This document shows positions 13,168-21,791 of a stretch of DNA of 63,070 nucleotides, piece after piece. The translations under genes were made by a program, and so were the position numbers. A model generated the notes under the pieces. That model was given only the letters and a program-made list of their open reading frames with translations, had not been told where the DNA came from and did no database searches. The stretch comes from Mycoplasmatota bacterium. Its GTDB lineage: Bacteria > Bacillota_I > Bacilli_A > Acholeplasmatales > Acholeplasmataceae. The first letter of the stretch is position 1, and each line of letters starts with the position of its first letter. The stretch spans positions 1-63,070 of the forward strand of contig JANKMU010000009.1 of assembly GCA_024650045.1 (NCBI GenBank), in the 5' to 3' direction.

Positions 13168-13863
13168 TTAATCTTTGAATTCACCTAGTTTATATCCAAA
13201 TCCCCACATTGTTATAATGATTTTAGGATTTGATGGATCATCTTCTATTTTTTCTCTTAATCGCCTTACATGAACGTTAATGACGTTATCATTATAATAA
13301 TATTCCTCTCCCCAAACACTTCTATACATTTGCTGTTTCGAGAATGTTTGCTCTGGATGTGTCACTAATAATTTTAGGATTTCATACTCTTTTAGAGTTA
13401 AGTCAACTAGTTTACCATTCTTCTTAACTTCATAATTGTTAAAGTTGATTTCAAGATTAGAAATCATATATTTCTCTTTGATTTCAGTATCTTTTGTTTT
13501 ATTAGAACGTCTTAAAACTGCTTTAACTCTTGCTACCAATTCAAGCATAGAAAATGGTTTTGACAAATAATCATCTGCTCCTAAACCCAAATTAATTGCT
13601 TTTTCTACATCAGTATCTTTGGTAGAAATAATGATAACAGGAACATCACCTTTTGATCTTATAAACCTAAGCACTTCTTCTCCACTTTTTATTGGTAACA
13701 TCAAGTCTAAAAGAACTGCATCATATTTGACAGTATTGAAGTTATTGATTGCATCTTCGCCATTAAAAACAGCTTTGACATCGAAATTTTCTTCTTTTAG
13801 TTTCGTCTCAATACTTCTACTGATTAAAACATTATCTTCAACTAATAAAATTTTTTGGCCCAT
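13168..13863 (-). CDS. OmpR/PhoB-family response regulator (orphan)
   Basis: DNA-binding two-component regulator of 231 residues. Receiver domain 1-120: acidic pocket Glu9/Asp10, phospho-acceptor Asp53 in LLDLMLP, Ser/Thr at 80-81 and Lys102 in SKPFSMLEL. C-terminal winged helix (about 130-228) with LTLKEYEILKLL and NVINVHVRRLREKI. No histidine kinase gene lies nearby, so the partner must be elsewhere. It has an extended -10 promoter at 13942 and a separate putative small RNA upstream on the same strand. Confidence 0.93.
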   Translation of the reverse strand: MGQKILLVEDNVLISRSIETKLKEENFDVKAVFNGEDAINNFNTVKYDAVLLDLMLPIKSGEEVLRFIRSKGDVPVIIISTKDTDVEKAINLGLGADDYLSKPFSMLELVARVKAVLRRSNKTKDTEIKEKYMISNLEINFNNYEVKKNGKLVDLTLKEYEILKLLVTHPEQTFSKQQMYRSVWGEEYYYNDNVINVHVRRLREKIEDDPSNPKIIITMWGFGYKLGEFKD

Positions 13864-13941
13864 TGCTAAATTTAATCCTAATTTTTAATCAATTAGGACA
13901 ACTCCTTTCATGTAGAACTCAAAGTATGTCTTGTTTACTTC

Positions 13942-13950
13942 ATTATACCA
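13942..13950 (-). promoter_or_regulatory. Extended -10 promoter of the response regulator
   Basis: Minus strand TGGTATAAT (13950-13942) with only a weak -35 (TCTTTA at 17 bases). It lies downstream of the small-RNA terminator, so the regulator has its own start site and a leader of about 75 bases. Confidence 0.55.
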
Positions 13951-13984: not shown

Positions 13985-14036
13985 AAAAAAAGCGCTCTGG
14001 CGACACGGGGGGGAATGTCGTCACCAGAGCTTTCCA
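13985..14036 (-). ncRNA. Putative small RNA with a C7 loop
   Basis: About 50 bases, in the only long gene-free stretch of the window (13864-14198). Minus strand: CCUCUGG at the 5' end, then a stem GCUCUGG / CCAGAGC (14030-14024 with 14000-13994), a 3-base bulge, stem CGACA / UGUCG, and a 10-base loop holding seven consecutive C (14013-14007). A U7 tract (13991-13985) follows. A TATAAT box lies 6 bases upstream of the likely start. The GH16 gene before it has its own terminator and the regulator after it its own promoter. C-rich loops are known seed regions that pair with Shine-Dalgarno sequences. It could instead be a plain terminator of an unseen transcript. Confidence 0.55.
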
Positions 14037-14041
14037 GAGGT

Positions 14042-14047
14042 ATTATA
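14042..14047 (-). promoter_or_regulatory. -10 box of the putative small RNA
   Basis: Minus strand TATAAT (14047-14042). The -35 region at 16-18 bases is T-rich only (CTTTTT); a TTGACA lies 29 bases upstream, too far for normal spacing. Confidence 0.45.
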
Positions 14048-14162
14048 ATCCATGAAATCCTACGAAAAAGATAAGATGTCAATCCTGATTATACTACACA
14101 TCTGGTACTTCTATTATACATCTTCTCTATGCTTATTTTCAAATTACGCATTATTTACATAT

Positions 14163-14189
14163 AAAAAAGGATATGCATATTACATATCC
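14163..14189 (-). terminator. Terminator at the end of the glucan-uptake operon
   Basis: Stem GGATATG / CATATCC with a 7-base loop, followed on the minus strand by T6; lies 10 bases after the GH16 stop. Confidence 0.85.
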
Positions 14190-14198
14190 CTTTGTATC

Positions 14199-15356
14199 TT
14201 AGCCTAAATAAGTAAATAACAAAACATCACTAAGTTCAGATGTTCTTCCAACAAAGTCAACTGCTTGAATTTGTACTTGGTAGGTTTGATCAACATTTAA
14301 ACCTGAAAAAGTAATTTGATTCAAACTTGCATAACGATGGAATGATCCATCCAAATATACTGCGTACTCTTCAACGCCATAATCATCCGATGATTTTTTC
14401 CAAAAAATAGTGTTTTTGAGTTGAGCTAACTCAAGATCTTCTGGAGTCGTAGGTGCTTCTGTGTCTACTACAGCGTAATCTTGCTTATATACTCTAACAT
14501 GTTCTATTTCAAAAGTTGCTGGAAAGATCGTATCATCAACACCTTGGACACCACCCCAATTACCACCTATCGCCAAGTTTAAAATTAAATAGAATGGCTC
14601 GTCAAATGGAAATGCTTCATGATAAGGTGCATCTTGCGTGAATGCAGCTACATAGTTAAATTCTGCAAATTTTTCACCATTATGGAAACTTTGAATTTTT
14701 CCAGGTGACCAAATCATTTCATATTCATGAAATTCCGTATCCAGGTTTTCAACTACTTTAGAAAATCCAATTTGTGTTCCCAAATTATGGTTAAATCTTT
14801 TCGTATGAATCGTAGAATGAATTCTAGTTGGATCATATCCAACATATTCCATAATATCAATTTCACCACTATTTGGCCATCCACCATAACTATTCATTAG
14901 TGGCATCATCCAGATTGCTGGCCAAGTTCCTCGACCCGTAGGCATTTTTGCACTCACTACAATTCTAACATATTCAAAAGTGCCTTTATACTTAGTTGTC
15001 ATTCTAGCAGATGTATATTGTCTTCCTCCAAATGGTTCTCTATTAGCAGTAATAACTAAATTACCATCTTCAATTGATGCATTTTCTTTACGATAGTATT
15101 GAAGTTCATTATTTCCTCCACCACCGCCATCAATTTCAAAATTCCATTTGTCTTCATCAATCTCTGGACCTTCAAACTCATCAGCCCATATACATACCCA
15201 ACCACCCTCAAGTGTTGGAACATCGCAATCATCTACAGCTGTTAATGGTTCAAGTCCATTTGGAACCGAAGGGGTTGGTTCATCTGTCTCTATTGGAGTT
15301 GTATCACACCCCACTAATATAAACAATAATAATATTAATATAATAATCTTTTTCAT
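14199..15356 (-). CDS. GH16 endo-beta-glucanase lipoprotein (laminarinase-like) with C-terminal FnIII domain
   Basis: Surface enzyme that would cut beta-1,3-glucan chains. The 385-residue product has a lipoprotein signal with lipobox LVGC (Cys17), an acidic linker, a GH16 domain (about 50-296) with the catalytic motif GEIDIMEYVG (Glu165, Asp167, Glu170; the extra Met makes it the laminarinase rather than lichenase form), and a fibronectin III-like domain (about 300-385). It is the last gene of the long minus-strand locus, 9 bases after the permease at 15366, and supplies oligosaccharides to the neighbouring transporters. A signal-less GH16 paralog lies at 34840. Confidence 0.92.
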   Translation of the reverse strand: MKKIIILILLLFILVGCDTTPIETDEPTPSVPNGLEPLTAVDDCDVPTLEGGWVCIWADEFEGPEIDEDKWNFEIDGGGGGNNELQYYRKENASIEDGNLVITANREPFGGRQYTSARMTTKYKGTFEYVRIVVSAKMPTGRGTWPAIWMMPLMNSYGGWPNSGEIDIMEYVGYDPTRIHSTIHTKRFNHNLGTQIGFSKVVENLDTEFHEYEMIWSPGKIQSFHNGEKFAEFNYVAAFTQDAPYHEAFPFDEPFYLILNLAIGGNWGGVQGVDDTIFPATFEIEHVRVYKQDYAVVDTEAPTTPEDLELAQLKNTIFWKKSSDDYGVEEYAVYLDGSFHRYASLNQITFSGLNVDQTYQVQIQAVDFVGRTSELSDVLLFTYLG

Positions 15357-16301: not shown

Positions 16302-17375
16302 TTATTTCTCCCTTCTGCGAGCGGAAAGAACGCCAACGAAAATGCTCATAATGATAACCATCAGCAAGAAATATATCCAAGCGATTGCTGCAGCATAACC
16401 ATAACCATTTAAAAATGAGTTTGTTGGTGTACCACCTATCATATGATTCCTTGCAATAGCAAGTATACCATCTGGTTCAACGAAAAGCGACATAGATACA
16501 ACAATATAAATAATGCTGACACTAATCAAAGGGCTTATTGATGGTAGTGTAATTTTCCAAAAACGATCCCATGGTGATGCTCCATCAATCGCTGCTGCTT
16601 CATAAATTGAAGTATCAATTTTTTGAAGACCCGCAAGAAAGATTAATATTGGAATACCTGCATACCATAATATCAATAACATCGATGTCAATAAAGCCTC
16701 TAATGGATTAGCAATCCATGATCCTAAATTTTCTGAAATATAATTAAGAACTGCGCTATCTTGCAAAGCGGGTAATGATGTAGCATCTTGGTTAGCGAGT
16801 TCATTAATAACGGGTCCTGTCGCGATAACGACAGGAAGAAAGAAAATAGTTCTCCAGAAGCCTTTCAGCTTGATGGGGTTATTAATCAATACCGCAATCA
16901 TAATCGAAAATACGACAACAAGCGGTACAGAAATAATCATTTTTCCTACATAAGTTCCAAAAAGCGGTAACAATGTTTGACTTCTGAAAATATTTAAATA
17001 ATTTGCAAAGCCAACATATGTCATTGTAATGCCTTGTTCTAAATTGAAATAAGCTTCATGAAGACTCAAATAAAACGAGTAAAACATTGGGTAAAGGGTA
17101 AATATTAAAAACCCAATAATCCATAATAAAACAAATAATAAACCATAAAAACCTTCTCTTTTTCTTCGTGTAATTTTAATATTTATAAATGAAAAGAGTA
17201 TGAGTTTTAATCCTTTTTTCCTAATCACAAAATTATGTGATAAAGCATACATAATTTTATCTATAATAGGAGTTACTTTAACCAAATAAAAATCTGATAT
17301 CTTTGTCCAATAAATAGATACTTTTTTAACTATATTTGCAAAAAATTCGTTGATAGTTCCTAAGAATTTCTTCAT
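16302..17375 (-). CDS. Carbohydrate ABC transporter permease, MalF type (pair 1)
   Basis: Sugar-importer permease of 357 residues. It has an unusually long cytoplasmic N-terminus (about 75 residues, basic, possibly amphipathic) before six membrane helices; the EAA motif is EAAAIDGASPWDRFWKITLP. Its ATG overlaps the TGA of the DUF5696-like gene, so translation is probably coupled. Partner of the MalG-type subunit at 15366. Confidence 0.92.
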   Translation of the reverse strand: MKKFLGTINEFFANIVKKVSIYWTKISDFYLVKVTPIIDKIMYALSHNFVIRKKGLKLILFSFINIKITRRKREGFYGLLFVLLWIIGFLIFTLYPMFYSFYLSLHEAYFNLEQGITMTYVGFANYLNIFRSQTLLPLFGTYVGKMIISVPLVVVFSIMIAVLINNPIKLKGFWRTIFFLPVVIATGPVINELANQDATSLPALQDSAVLNYISENLGSWIANPLEALLTSMLLILWYAGIPILIFLAGLQKIDTSIYEAAAIDGASPWDRFWKITLPSISPLISVSIIYIVVSMSLFVEPDGILAIARNHMIGGTPTNSFLNGYGYAAAIAWIYFLLMVIIMSIFVGVLSARRREK

Positions 17376-19753
17376 GGCAATATCACCTCATAACTTCTTG
17401 CAGCAATCGTTAATGCATCTACATTTCTTGATGTATAGTTATAATTAACATAAATTGAAACTTGATTCGAGTAACTAACCTTCACAAGTCCTGTTTCAAT
17501 TACTTCACGATCTATAACATATGCATCAGTAACATATTTAAGTGCATCATTAACATAATGATATGCAGTTACTATTTCTTCTTCATAATCAGACAATGTC
17601 GTTGTATAGAAAATATTCGAAGCTGTATAGCGCATTTCATAAGTGTTTTCATGGGTGAGCATGTAACTTGGATTGATCGCAAAATCCACCATCGTCAAGA
17701 AACGATCCTCAGCTAAAGCATTAAAGTTTAAATTAGGTGTGTAATAAGAAATGCTACCTTTTAAAATAATAGGAATCAATGGAACAAGATCTGTATAATA
17801 ATCATATTGACTATTTGTTATTGCCATATTCGAATAACCATCTATATATTGATACATATAAACATTAGAATTTGACAAAACAAGTTGATCATATAAAGAT
17901 GCAATCTCTTGATAATATTCTAAACCGTAACTTCTACCATAATTTCCTTGATCATAATAACTAAACAAAGTAGAACCCAGTTGATGCATCGATAATCCTG
18001 AAACACCTAAGTCATTAAAGAAATTAATATCACTTTTAGCCATAGAAAGACTTTGTTCTGGATATAGGTGATAAACTTCAGTAACTTGACCATTAAGGTT
18101 TCTTCTATTACGTACGATTTTTAATCGATCTAATGATCTAGCAACATCTCTATTATAAATAACACGTCTAGATAATTCTGAAGAAACAATATAATCATTG
18201 GTCAAGTATATAGTATTCCCATCTTCAATGACATGTTCTGATAGATTTTCAATACCCCTTTTATCCCAACTATTGGTTCTATATGGATTTCGATTAATAA
18301 AACCATCTCGACTCCAACCCATCAATGTTAATTGTTGGTTATGAATTCCTTCAGATTTAAAATACTCATATGCATTTAAAACTTGTGAAGCAGTTGTCAT
18401 CGTGACACGTGTTGAACCAATAAATGAAGGTTCATGATCAGACATTAAATAATCTAGTTGAATAGGAATATTACCCTCTACAACTTTTTCTCTTTGAGTT
18501 AAAACACCTTCAGCAATCAAATGATCTCTATATCCTTTTGCAATACCAACATACGATGCTTCATCATCAGATAAAAACTGATATGACAATCTTAAGTCTT
18601 GTGTTGTCATTTCATCAGAAATGGTTTCATTTCCTTCTCCAGCTTTGTTAATGATATATCTATAAATATGTCTAACATTGTATCTTGTTCCAATGCGGTG
18701 ATATCTGGTGTTATCACCCCAGAAATTTGCCAATAATTGAGCATTTTCAGAACCTTCAAGAACATTAACGAAATATCCATTTGCTCCTGTTTCATGGACA
18801 ATACCAAAAACTGGAACTGTTAAGTTAGGTATGGTCATCGTTCCATAACCTATATCAGTACCATAAAAACGTGCTTGAAAATATGTATTATGTCTAGCGT
18901 TTGTTCTAACTAAAGCACCAACGCCATCAGGTATAACAATGTATCCGGGAAAATCATCTTCTCTTGCTGCACCAAAGTATGGAAATACTTGGATGCCTAG
19001 TAAACGGTAAATATCTCCTGATTCTTCGATTTGCTCTACAGGAATATAAACTTCTAATGAACCTTGATTCAAGCTAATGACTACATCAAAATTGAAATCT
19101 AAATATTTGACATCAACGTTTACAGTAAATGAGCTTCCAGTTTGATTTGTAATTGCATTTGTAACCCGACGATAATTATAACTTCCTGCTTCCAAATAAT
19201 ACGGTCTTAAATGATCTGGTTCGTCTTCTGTTACTGCACCATTATTAGCATAACTAACATCTGCCAATGAATATATAGATTCTGTTTGAATCGTTGCAGA
19301 TGATATGTTGAGTGCCCTAACATATTCAATCCAGAGTCCAGAGTTCATTAAATTACGGTTACGAGTATTATCTTCTCTTGTTCCAGATGCTCCTTGAAAC
19401 TCTGGTCTAGATGACCAAAAATAGTTTGTTACTTTATTATATACAATCATTGAAAATGAATCTAATTCAAAATACACCGAAAGTTCAGTAGTATCAAACA
19501 TTAATTCAAATCCTAAAGAATCTAATTCTTCAAGTGTATATACTAAAGTGAAATTGTCGTGGTAATTATCTAGAACCTGTGCATCCTCTACCTCTTTTTG
19601 AGTATATCTAGAACTTTCTAAAAGCATTTGATTTATGTATGGATAATTTTCTTCTACATCAATTTCATTACTTATATCCAAGTAACCACTACTACCATAA
19701 ACGATACCAGCAGTTATCATTGAAAATAATAATATGACAATGACATATTTCAT
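17372..19753 (-). CDS. Large exported DUF5696-like protein
   Basis: Protein of about 793 residues with one N-terminal signal or anchor helix (YVIVILLFSMITAGIVY) and otherwise a soluble extracytoplasmic body. The stretch GYIVIPDGVGALVR near residue 290 and overall length match proteins I know as DUF5696, found beside sugar ABC transporters in Firmicutes; no function is established for them. The C-terminal half has the strand/helix rhythm of a glycosidase-like TIM barrel, but I see no certain catalytic pair. The frame could begin at GTG 19765; I prefer ATG 19753, which places the signal helix at the N-terminus. It overlaps the next permease and lies against the NHL-Yip1 gene. Confidence 0.7.
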   Translation of the reverse strand: MKYVIVILLFSMITAGIVYGSSGYLDISNEIDVEENYPYINQMLLESSRYTQKEVEDAQVLDNYHDNFTLVYTLEELDSLGFELMFDTTELSVYFELDSFSMIVYNKVTNYFWSSRPEFQGASGTREDNTRNRNLMNSGLWIEYVRALNISSATIQTESIYSLADVSYANNGAVTEDEPDHLRPYYLEAGSYNYRRVTNAITNQTGSSFTVNVDVKYLDFNFDVVISLNQGSLEVYIPVEQIEESGDIYRLLGIQVFPYFGAAREDDFPGYIVIPDGVGALVRTNARHNTYFQARFYGTDIGYGTMTIPNLTVPVFGIVHETGANGYFVNVLEGSENAQLLANFWGDNTRYHRIGTRYNVRHIYRYIINKAGEGNETISDEMTTQDLRLSYQFLSDDEASYVGIAKGYRDHLIAEGVLTQREKVVEGNIPIQLDYLMSDHEPSFIGSTRVTMTTASQVLNAYEYFKSEGIHNQQLTLMGWSRDGFINRNPYRTNSWDKRGIENLSEHVIEDGNTIYLTNDYIVSSELSRRVIYNRDVARSLDRLKIVRNRRNLNGQVTEVYHLYPEQSLSMAKSDINFFNDLGVSGLSMHQLGSTLFSYYDQGNYGRSYGLEYYQEIASLYDQLVLSNSNVYMYQYIDGYSNMAITNSQYDYYTDLVPLIPIILKGSISYYTPNLNFNALAEDRFLTMVDFAINPSYMLTHENTYEMRYTASNIFYTTTLSDYEEEIVTAYHYVNDALKYVTDAYVIDREVIETGLVKVSYSNQVSIYVNYNYTSRNVDALTIAARSYEVILP

Positions 19754-19757
19754 TAAT

Positions 19758-21791
19758 TTAACCACGGATCATCAACTCCCTTATGATATCTGTAATGAGT
19801 ACCCAAACTTCATTTAATAATAAGTACACAATGAAAAGTACAGCTAGAATCATTAATGCTGTAAAGATACTAATCAATATATTGCCAATAGTTGGTTTCA
19901 TGTCATAGAAATGAATTTCTTTAACCATAATAACCATGTAAATAACAGTAATTGCTACTGCTATGAAAAGCAATGTTGAATAAATAAAAGCTTCATTGTA
20001 TGTTAAACCTTTTGAAACAATTGTCAATATCGGAAATGCAATAATCATTGGAAGTAAGGTAGATGCTGATGCTTGATAGACATCGCTCAACTTACCTTCA
20101 CCATCTCTAATACTACATACAAGATAATTTGCAACTACCCATAAGAAAAACGGTAAGAATATAGTTGTCAGTTGTTGAAACATATTAATCTCAGCAGGTA
20201 TATGATTATTAAATAAGAAACTTGTTTCAAATATCCAGTAAATATAAGTTACAAAAAACAATAATAAATATATGGTTGCTGATAAATTAGAAGTTTTAGC
20301 CTCTCTTTTAATGCCATAATAACCATCACCTGGATGTTTAAAAATATAGAATGGGAACACAAGTTCATTATATAACTTAAACTGTGATAAGTATGTTTTC
20401 ACTTTCTTAATTGGCTTTTTAACGAAATCCATAAAATGAACAACATTATTAACAATAAATAACAAAATAAAACCTAATAAGAATCCAACAATAACTTCTC
20501 CACTATTTAGTAAAACAGTATTTCTAACTTCCCAAAATGCATTGGAGTAGCCTGTTGTATCTCGTGCCACCTCATAATATATCATCGCACTTTCGTAATC
20601 CATATTAGAGAAATGTGCATCACCAATACCCTTGTTTGCAAGATCAAATAAATTATTCATTTTAAGTACTTCTTGCCATGGTTCCAGTGATTCTAAATAT
20701 TTACCATCTTGATATAGATCGATTGCATAATGGACAAGATTAGCAAACTCTGTTGGAATAAACACTTGTAGTGAATTTGATGTTTGGTCAATAGCATAAA
20801 TATTACTTTTTGAATCTACAGCAATACCAGCTGCTGTTTTAAATAACCCTTTTTGGTTATTTGTATCTGGACCACTAAAAGCAAATAATACTGATCCTTC
20901 GGGACCATATTCAATAATGTATCCATCTGAACTAATCGTAAAGATTGTATTAAATGGACCAACAAACATATCTTCAGTGTTTTCAAGTCCCCAAACTGAT
21001 CGATTATAAACGAAGTTTGCAATATTAAGCTTTAAATAACCCATATCGCCTTTAGTCGTTGTCAAAATTAAGCCATCACGATCGATTGCAATATTATAAA
21101 CAGGTTTAGGAATCATTTGAAACCATTGTCTTCTTTGTTGTTCATCAAATAAAATTGATTTTAAAACATTATCCCATGTATTTGGAATCTGGTTTCCACC
21201 GAAAAATCCAAAAAAGCTTCCGTTGTTCTCGTATTCTGCTAAACCATTAATATTACCTGCTAACAAGATGTATACATTATTGCCACGATCTGTAATAATT
21301 TTAGTTGGATCAAAAGCATCGGTATCTTGAAAAAATGGTGTATTTATTGGTCTACTATATATCGTTCCTAATGTATAGGAGTCTGTATCTTGATCATATA
21401 AGAACTGATACGCTTCTTTATTGCCAAAATCAGCAACATAAAGATTGCCATCAAATCCAACATGAACTCCTGATGGTTGATTTAAGATGCCTTCTCCGAT
21501 TGTCGTAACTATATCGGTTTGCAAGCTGTATTTAACAACTCTTGAATTTCCATAATCTGCAATATAAATGTTGTCATTTCGATCAATGGTTAAGTCTCTT
21601 GGCCCATTTAAGGTCAAACCACCAAGGTTATCTTGAATAGATAATGGTAAATAAGCATCTTGAGTTGGTACAAGTCTGCCAGTAGAACTACTATACGTAA
21701 ATGTTGTGTAAGGTAAACCATTGGCATTGACTGTTAGGGATGGAATCAATACCGCAAGTAAAACTAATAATAATATAATATACTTTTTCAT
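19758..21791 (-). CDS. NHL-repeat / TPR / Yip1-domain membrane protein
   Basis: Modular protein of 677 residues. Signal peptide (1-24), then an NHL-type beta-propeller (about 45-350) with repeats such as GPRDLTIDRNDNIYIADYGN and GVHVGFDGNLYVADFGN, then two TPR-like helical repeats (about 355-415), a membrane helix near 430-450, and a C-terminal Yip1-type multi-pass domain (about 485-670, opening IFKHPGDGYYGIKRE). The propeller and TPR would face outside and the Yip1 part sits in the membrane. It shares one base (TAATG) with the permease upstream. Role unknown; a scaffold or sensor for the flanking transporters is my inference. Confidence 0.8.
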   Translation of the reverse strand: MKKYIILLLVLLAVLIPSLTVNANGLPYTTFTYSSSTGRLVPTQDAYLPLSIQDNLGGLTLNGPRDLTIDRNDNIYIADYGNSRVVKYSLQTDIVTTIGEGILNQPSGVHVGFDGNLYVADFGNKEAYQFLYDQDTDSYTLGTIYSRPINTPFFQDTDAFDPTKIITDRGNNVYILLAGNINGLAEYENNGSFFGFFGGNQIPNTWDNVLKSILFDEQQRRQWFQMIPKPVYNIAIDRDGLILTTTKGDMGYLKLNIANFVYNRSVWGLENTEDMFVGPFNTIFTISSDGYIIEYGPEGSVLFAFSGPDTNNQKGLFKTAAGIAVDSKSNIYAIDQTSNSLQVFIPTEFANLVHYAIDLYQDGKYLESLEPWQEVLKMNNLFDLANKGIGDAHFSNMDYESAMIYYEVARDTTGYSNAFWEVRNTVLLNSGEVIVGFLLGFILLFIVNNVVHFMDFVKKPIKKVKTYLSQFKLYNELVFPFYIFKHPGDGYYGIKREAKTSNLSATIYLLLFFVTYIYWIFETSFLFNNHIPAEINMFQQLTTIFLPFFLWVVANYLVCSIRDGEGKLSDVYQASASTLLPMIIAFPILTIVSKGLTYNEAFIYSTLLFIAVAITVIYMVIMVKEIHFYDMKPTIGNILISIFTALMILAVLFIVYLLLNEVWVLITDIIRELMIRG

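Follow-up and report, generated by a model that had tools for sequence, protein, structure and literature searches.

The window analysed here, a stretch of 63,070 nucleotides, corresponds to contig 41 in a draft genome of 1.89 Mb. The host is a wall-less, free-living mollicute of the genus Peloplasma (Acholeplasmataceae). Its closest named relative, Peloplasma aerotolerans M4Ah, is a cultured, free-living mollicute (PMC11122141) and shares 96% identity with it in the response regulator described below. On the minus strand of the window, a predicted small RNA (sRNA) gene lies between a glucanase gene and a response-regulator gene. The genes and control elements of the locus are as follows.

13168..13863, minus strand: orphan response-regulator gene of the OmpR/PhoB type (Response_reg and Trans_reg_C), downstream of the sRNA
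13942..13947, minus strand: extended -10 box (TGG-TATAAT) of the response-regulator gene, separate from the sRNA
13985..14106, minus strand: sRNA gene, long form, ~122 nt (match to covariance model R1 at 14107-13986, E 1.2e-10, with the window sequence itself in the R1 seed)
14113..14142, minus strand: sRNA promoter, with TTGAAA (14142-14137), an 18-nt spacer and TATAAT (14118-14113); start at about 14106
14165..14193, minus strand: terminator of the upstream GH16 glucanase gene, dividing this gene from the sRNA
14199..15356, minus strand: GH16 beta-glucanase lipoprotein gene (Glyco_hydro_16) of the glucan locus, upstream of the sRNA

The domain matches to the response regulator downstream and the GH16 glucanase upstream agree with the siting given in an earlier note on this DNA, beside an orphan response regulator and the glucan locus. 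The response regulator is nearest to YycF (WalR), yet its score of 210.8 bits falls below the cut-off of 340. The minus strand upstream of its start codon (13885-13911) contains an AAAGGAG stretch and a small hairpin, together with a short reading frame (ATG/GTG AAA GGA GTT RTC CTA ATT GAT stop) that is common to the window and P. aerotolerans (L008). Judging from the sequence, the short frame and hairpin could possibly represent a leader peptide or a form of translational control. The glucan transporter locus also encodes a large DUF5696 protein (PF18952, E 8.7e-128; window 17372-19765). Separately, at L053:1501 (G000:C6:6580-6586), the palindrome TACCCCCCCATATGAGGGGTA stands immediately 5' of a gene of the heavy-metal-associated domain type starting MKTVEYKVTGMTC, and by its sequence this palindrome looks like a CsoR-type copper operator.

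Promoter and borders of the predicted transcript

The feature belongs to the minus strand, and folding of the plus strand, which was tried first, was dropped. The sRNA promoter matches the consensus at 11 of 12 positions and is the best promoter-like site in the scanned 16-kb region (9-25 kb). In 17/17 homologues its -10 element, TATAAT, was found at constant spacing, 12-13 nt before the compared stretch ends; the -35 element is less regular across them. The arrangement TTGAAA-18-TATAAT at 14142-14113 places the start near 14106 and gives an RNA of ~122 nt, rather than the 50-base transcript that the earlier note had proposed from a TATAAT at 14047-14042. This latter box exists, but it is located inside the RNA, where it shares bases with the 3' strand of helix P2 in the 5' hairpin. 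Between the window and P. aerotolerans, GATTATA in P2 becomes GATTAAA and its partner TATAATC becomes TTTAATC. Since both strands of P2 change together, the TATAAT at 14047-14042 is part of the structure, and this compensatory change ruled it out as a promoter. A small peptide encoded in the sRNA was also considered and was dropped because no small ORF was common to the 17 homologues compared.

Structure and conservation of the RNA

The RNA is predicted to fold into two hairpins, H1 at the 5' end and H2 at the 3' end, with the following elements.

14034..14105, minus strand: H1, 5' hairpin, with outer helix P1 at 14105-14101/14038-14034
14093-14087/14050-14044, minus strand: H1 helix P2 (coordinates from the sequence)
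14086-14082, minus strand: one-sided bulge of H1
14081-14071/14063-14053, minus strand: H1 helices P3/P4
14070-14064, minus strand: apical loop of H1, CUUUUUC
13994..14030, minus strand: H2, 3' hairpin and intrinsic terminator stem-loop, with loop GACAUUCCCCCCCGU and C7 at 14013-14007
13985..13991, minus strand: U7 tract of the terminator, from the sequence

The hairpin with a C7 loop and a U7 tract, on which the earlier note was centred, is thus present on the minus strand. Its stem exceeds the length that had been described (7 + 5 bp) and consists of 11 uninterrupted pairs, then a bulge and 2 more pairs (-20.8 kcal/mol for 65 nt). The loop contains C5-C7 in 17/17 homologues and UCCC in 13 of them. 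In H1, the outer helix is followed by an internal loop, the second helix by a bulge on the 5' side and the upper helix by the apical loop. The bulge, 3-7 nt long, is kept in 17/17 homologues, and the H1 loop contains CUUU in all 17 and CCUUU in 14.

Close orthologues of the response-regulator gene were found in 16 of 20 genomes of the genus, the window's genome included, and the RNA with a C5-C7 loop lies directly upstream of it at 14 of these 16 Peloplasma loci. The earlier note had named loss of the loop from close relatives as the observation that would speak against the RNA; the loop is kept. An orthologous RNA was also found in three genomes of the sister genus, including Tenericutes bacterium MO-XQ, and these keep the order of GH16-like gene end, RNA and response regulator. 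Two genomes (G013 and G008) retain the response regulator and an H1-like part with a CCCUUU stretch and have a different terminator loop, the C loop being lost. At L021:3260 and L022:3263, ~1.07 kb beyond the response-regulator match in the two genomes without a C loop at the main site, there is another hairpin with a C6-C7 loop and a U tract (TGTAGCATCCCCCCCTTAATTTTGCTACATCTTTTTTT in L021). From its sequence, this hairpin is possibly a third family member or a plain terminator.

The view that a C7 terminator loop exceeds chance expectation is borne out by its conservation. Over the 37-nt hairpin, the window and P. aerotolerans agree at every position (100%), compared with 72% identity in the intergenic sequence upstream, 80% downstream and 89% over the entire RNA. 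The genome has nine distinct runs of C7 or longer, and only two of these, both in this RNA family, are found in terminator loops.

Covariation in relatives, a check that the earlier note had suggested, was examined in two alignments of the 17 homologues. In a plain MAFFT alignment not fitted to structure, both partners have changed with pairing preserved in 9 of the 11 terminator pairs. Across the whole RNA, this procedure aligns the terminator and not H1. Because the H1 sequence is hardly conserved outside its loop, H1 was aligned by hand on each RNA's own fold. In the resulting structural alignment, which is fitted to structure, 99.6% of cells pair and both partners vary in 33 of 35 pairs, compared with 66% and 23.7 for shuffles. 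For the search model, N served as padding in the gaps, and residues falling in columns made up mostly of gaps were omitted. The hand alignment and the padding make the H1 pair counts lean towards structure, and independent support comes from the folding z-scores of H1 against dinucleotide shuffles, which average -4.4 over the 17 homologues (-1.05 in G006 to -7.0). Weak DNA matches at L003-L006 were set aside as short or low-complexity sequence and not the RNA.

The earlier note had also suggested that two copies of CUCUGG pair alternately with a single CCAGAG, giving two folds. Both copies (14039-14034 and 14029-14024) and the CCAGAG (14000-13995) are present, but the two alternative folds did not hold. 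The first CUCUGG copy pairs with the 5' end of the RNA (CCAGA, 14105-14101), and a 7-pair run between the RNA 5' strand and the terminator arm occurs only in the window and P. aerotolerans. Fold switching is therefore not conserved, and this proposal was dropped.

The hairpin shares its strand with the upstream GH16 gene, and it could be asked whether it simply terminates the glucan operon in the usual way and has a C run by chance. This reading is already contradicted, and we consider it highly improbable: a separate terminator at 14193-14165 serves the GH16 gene, and the hairpin persists in several other relatives in which a different gene (a LacI-like reading frame, by eye) precedes the RNA. 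In addition, C7 terminator loops are confined to the two RNAs, and the structure is conserved over the whole 120 nt. Collectively, the conservation, the covariation and the conserved promoter and terminator strongly support what the earlier note had envisaged, a small RNA that lies between operons, is independent of them and exposes a C-rich loop.

A shorter paralogue and the extent of the family

A second copy, an RNA of ~85 nt, was found at C4:52319, with a gene for an ABC-transporter permease on one side and an esterase gene on the other. Its promoter is of the TTGACA-like/TATAAT type (TTGACT/TATAAT at C4:52319); then come a short hairpin whose loop holds ACCUUUU, the linker GCAUGAAUUGG and a terminator with a C7 loop. 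With the short-form model R2, a copy was detected in 18 of 20 Peloplasma genomes, one of them (G006) by a partial match; the match in G014, which falls on the long-form locus, was left out of this count. The 11 aligned copies all have ACCUUU or ACCCUUU in the first loop and C7-C8 in the second, and the loops, along with the terminator stem, are among the most constant parts. The short form is also found in genomes without a detected response regulator.

Each of the two RNAs always precedes its gene, the response-regulator or the esterase gene, in the same orientation, and in most genomes no more than some 20-70 nt separate the end of the paralogue from the start codon of the esterase gene. This arrangement would suit a cis-acting leader in which H1 senses a signal and H2 is a regulated terminator governing read-through into the response-regulator gene or, for the paralogue, the esterase gene. 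However, a TGN-TATAAT or TGC-TATACT box is located 23-37 nt past the sRNA terminator in 17/17 homologues and provides the response-regulator gene with its own conserved -10 box. No conserved antiterminator was found either, the long pairing between the 5' strand and the terminator arm being limited to two genomes, and H1 is nearly without sequence conservation except in its loop, unlike a ligand-binding aptamer. Since the sRNA is served by a promoter and terminator of its own, and a separate promoter serves the gene that follows, we regard the RNA as a free sRNA, and a leader function as quite unlikely.

R1 matched 28 of 160 genomes of the order, all of them Acholeplasmataceae and in 5 genera, a count that takes in seed members and short-form copies. 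Among 395 genomes drawn from the class, matches were likewise found in Acholeplasmataceae only; both searches were run under strict filters, and divergent copies may be missed. Rfam 15 gave no relevant match, for the window at gathering score or for the RNA region and four related loci at E values up to 10, and the same searches gave no match to the 6C RNA model (RF01066). No description of the RNA was found in the open-access literature. The two-loop RNA family is apparently absent from Rfam and, as far as the Rfam models tell, is not related by descent to 6C, LhrC or RoxS/RsaE. At the level of the gene, we are highly confident that this is a real, new and lineage-specific sRNA family.

Proposed action at ribosome-binding sites

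Gene borders, promoter, terminator, structure, loops, paralogue, distribution and the lack of Hfq are established as far as sequence evidence goes; we infer that the sRNA would be transcribed, pair with mRNAs, lower their translation and come under the control of the neighbouring response regulator. The last of these is suggested by linkage, and no operator of the response regulator was identified. We think it fairly probable that the ~122-nt RNA is a free-standing, trans-acting sRNA, one of two paralogues, whose loops pair with Shine-Dalgarno stretches and block ribosomes without Hfq. The (C)CUUU loop of H1 and the C-run loop of H2, both exposed, would be where pairing begins with Shine-Dalgarno stretches rich in purines (AAAGG, GGGG) in several mRNAs. 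Such pairing would cover the ribosome-binding sites and silence the mRNAs, independently of Hfq and much like LhrC of Listeria and RoxS/RsaE of Bacillus/Staphylococcus. Hfq was absent from all 20 Peloplasma genomes searched, in which control proteins were detected, and the RNA resembles LhrC-type sRNAs in this respect.

Possible target sites were counted as GGGGGGAT at ribosome-site distance before ATG. There were 79 such sites compared with 8 in the reversed control in the 20 Peloplasma genomes, and 28 compared with 3 in 25 Acholeplasmataceae genomes without a detected copy of the RNA. The ~10-fold excess in both sets marks a lineage-wide G-run ribosome-binding site, and since the ratio is equal with or without the RNA, these sites reflect a habit of the lineage and are not evidence of targeting. 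The ORFs sampled downstream of G-run sites were diverse and a good part were not clear genes, so no target is claimed. A probe for the 16S 3' end, GGATCACCTCCTTTCT, had no match in the draft genome.

The counts of G-run sites do not discriminate between such pairing and an explanation in which the C-run loop instead binds an RNA-binding protein or sponges a G-rich regulatory RNA. The poor target specificity of a near-homopolymer loop, and the 3-7-nt bulge of H1, a possible binding site kept in 17/17 homologues, fit the latter explanation. However, there is no candidate protein, and the CCUUU of H1 is another patch of pyrimidines whose sequence complements purine-rich ribosome sites, like the C-rich patches of LhrC and RoxS. 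We give the protein or sponge explanation some weight but judge it unlikely. Returning to pairing with ribosome sites, an anti-Shine-Dalgarno role is plausible by analogy with known Gram-positive sRNAs. Rather unlikely is a fuller version, an Hfq-less system of two sRNAs in which the CCUUU loop, copying the core of the ribosome's putative anti-Shine-Dalgarno sequence, and the C run would together repress an entire class of genes with G-run ribosome sites (GGGGGGAU) and link response-regulator signalling to translation.

By analogy, LhrC of Listeria monocytogenes is the closest model and RoxS/RsaE the second. In LhrC4, UCCC is present both in loop A and in the terminator loop, and both loops bind the target close to the start codon; LhrC4 does not need Hfq, and its expression requires the LisRK two-component system (PMC4132741). 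LhrC and the Peloplasma RNA are alike in having several copies per genome, two stem-loops of which the second is the terminator, C-rich motifs in both loops, Hfq-independence and a two-component link. In contrast to LhrC, the Peloplasma RNA belongs to a different lineage, has no Rfam match, and carries a C5-C8 run in its terminator loop and CCUUU in its first loop; its two-component control is only suggested by the gene neighbourhood. The UCCC motif of LhrC is found in 13 of 17 terminator loops but is not the rule in the first loop, where CCUUU occurs in 14 of 17. The C-rich region of RoxS acts on the ribosome-binding site, and RoxS depends on ResDE (PMC4409812). RoxS/RsaE is likewise of Gram-positive lineage, with C-rich single-stranded regions, pairing of RoxS with the ribosome-binding site and a two-component tie, but its loop sequences are different and RoxS has several C-rich regions (CRR1-4), whereas the Peloplasma RNA is without an Rfam match. 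The 6C RNA of Actinobacteria (RF01066; PMC4046766) also has two hairpins, a C-run loop, a length of ~100 nt and a free-standing gene. It differs in having about six C in both loops, whereas the Peloplasma RNA has its C run (C5-C7) in the terminator loop only, the sole exception being G001, with a C run near the first loop that is partly paired. The phyla differ too: 6C is found in Actinomycetales, and matches to the Peloplasma RNA in Acholeplasmataceae only. By its mode of action, the sRNA is most likely a C-rich-loop anti-Shine-Dalgarno regulator, a known kind.

The regulatory RNAs of free-living Mollicutes are little known, and Hfq is missing from Peloplasma genomes. The present analysis adds a lineage-specific family of RNAs that is well supported, has a defined structure and two conserved loops, and includes a paralogue. 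As P. aerotolerans is in culture, its transcripts and targets are directly testable. If the loop mechanism holds, C-rich anti-Shine-Dalgarno regulation would extend to a branch of the Mollicutes.
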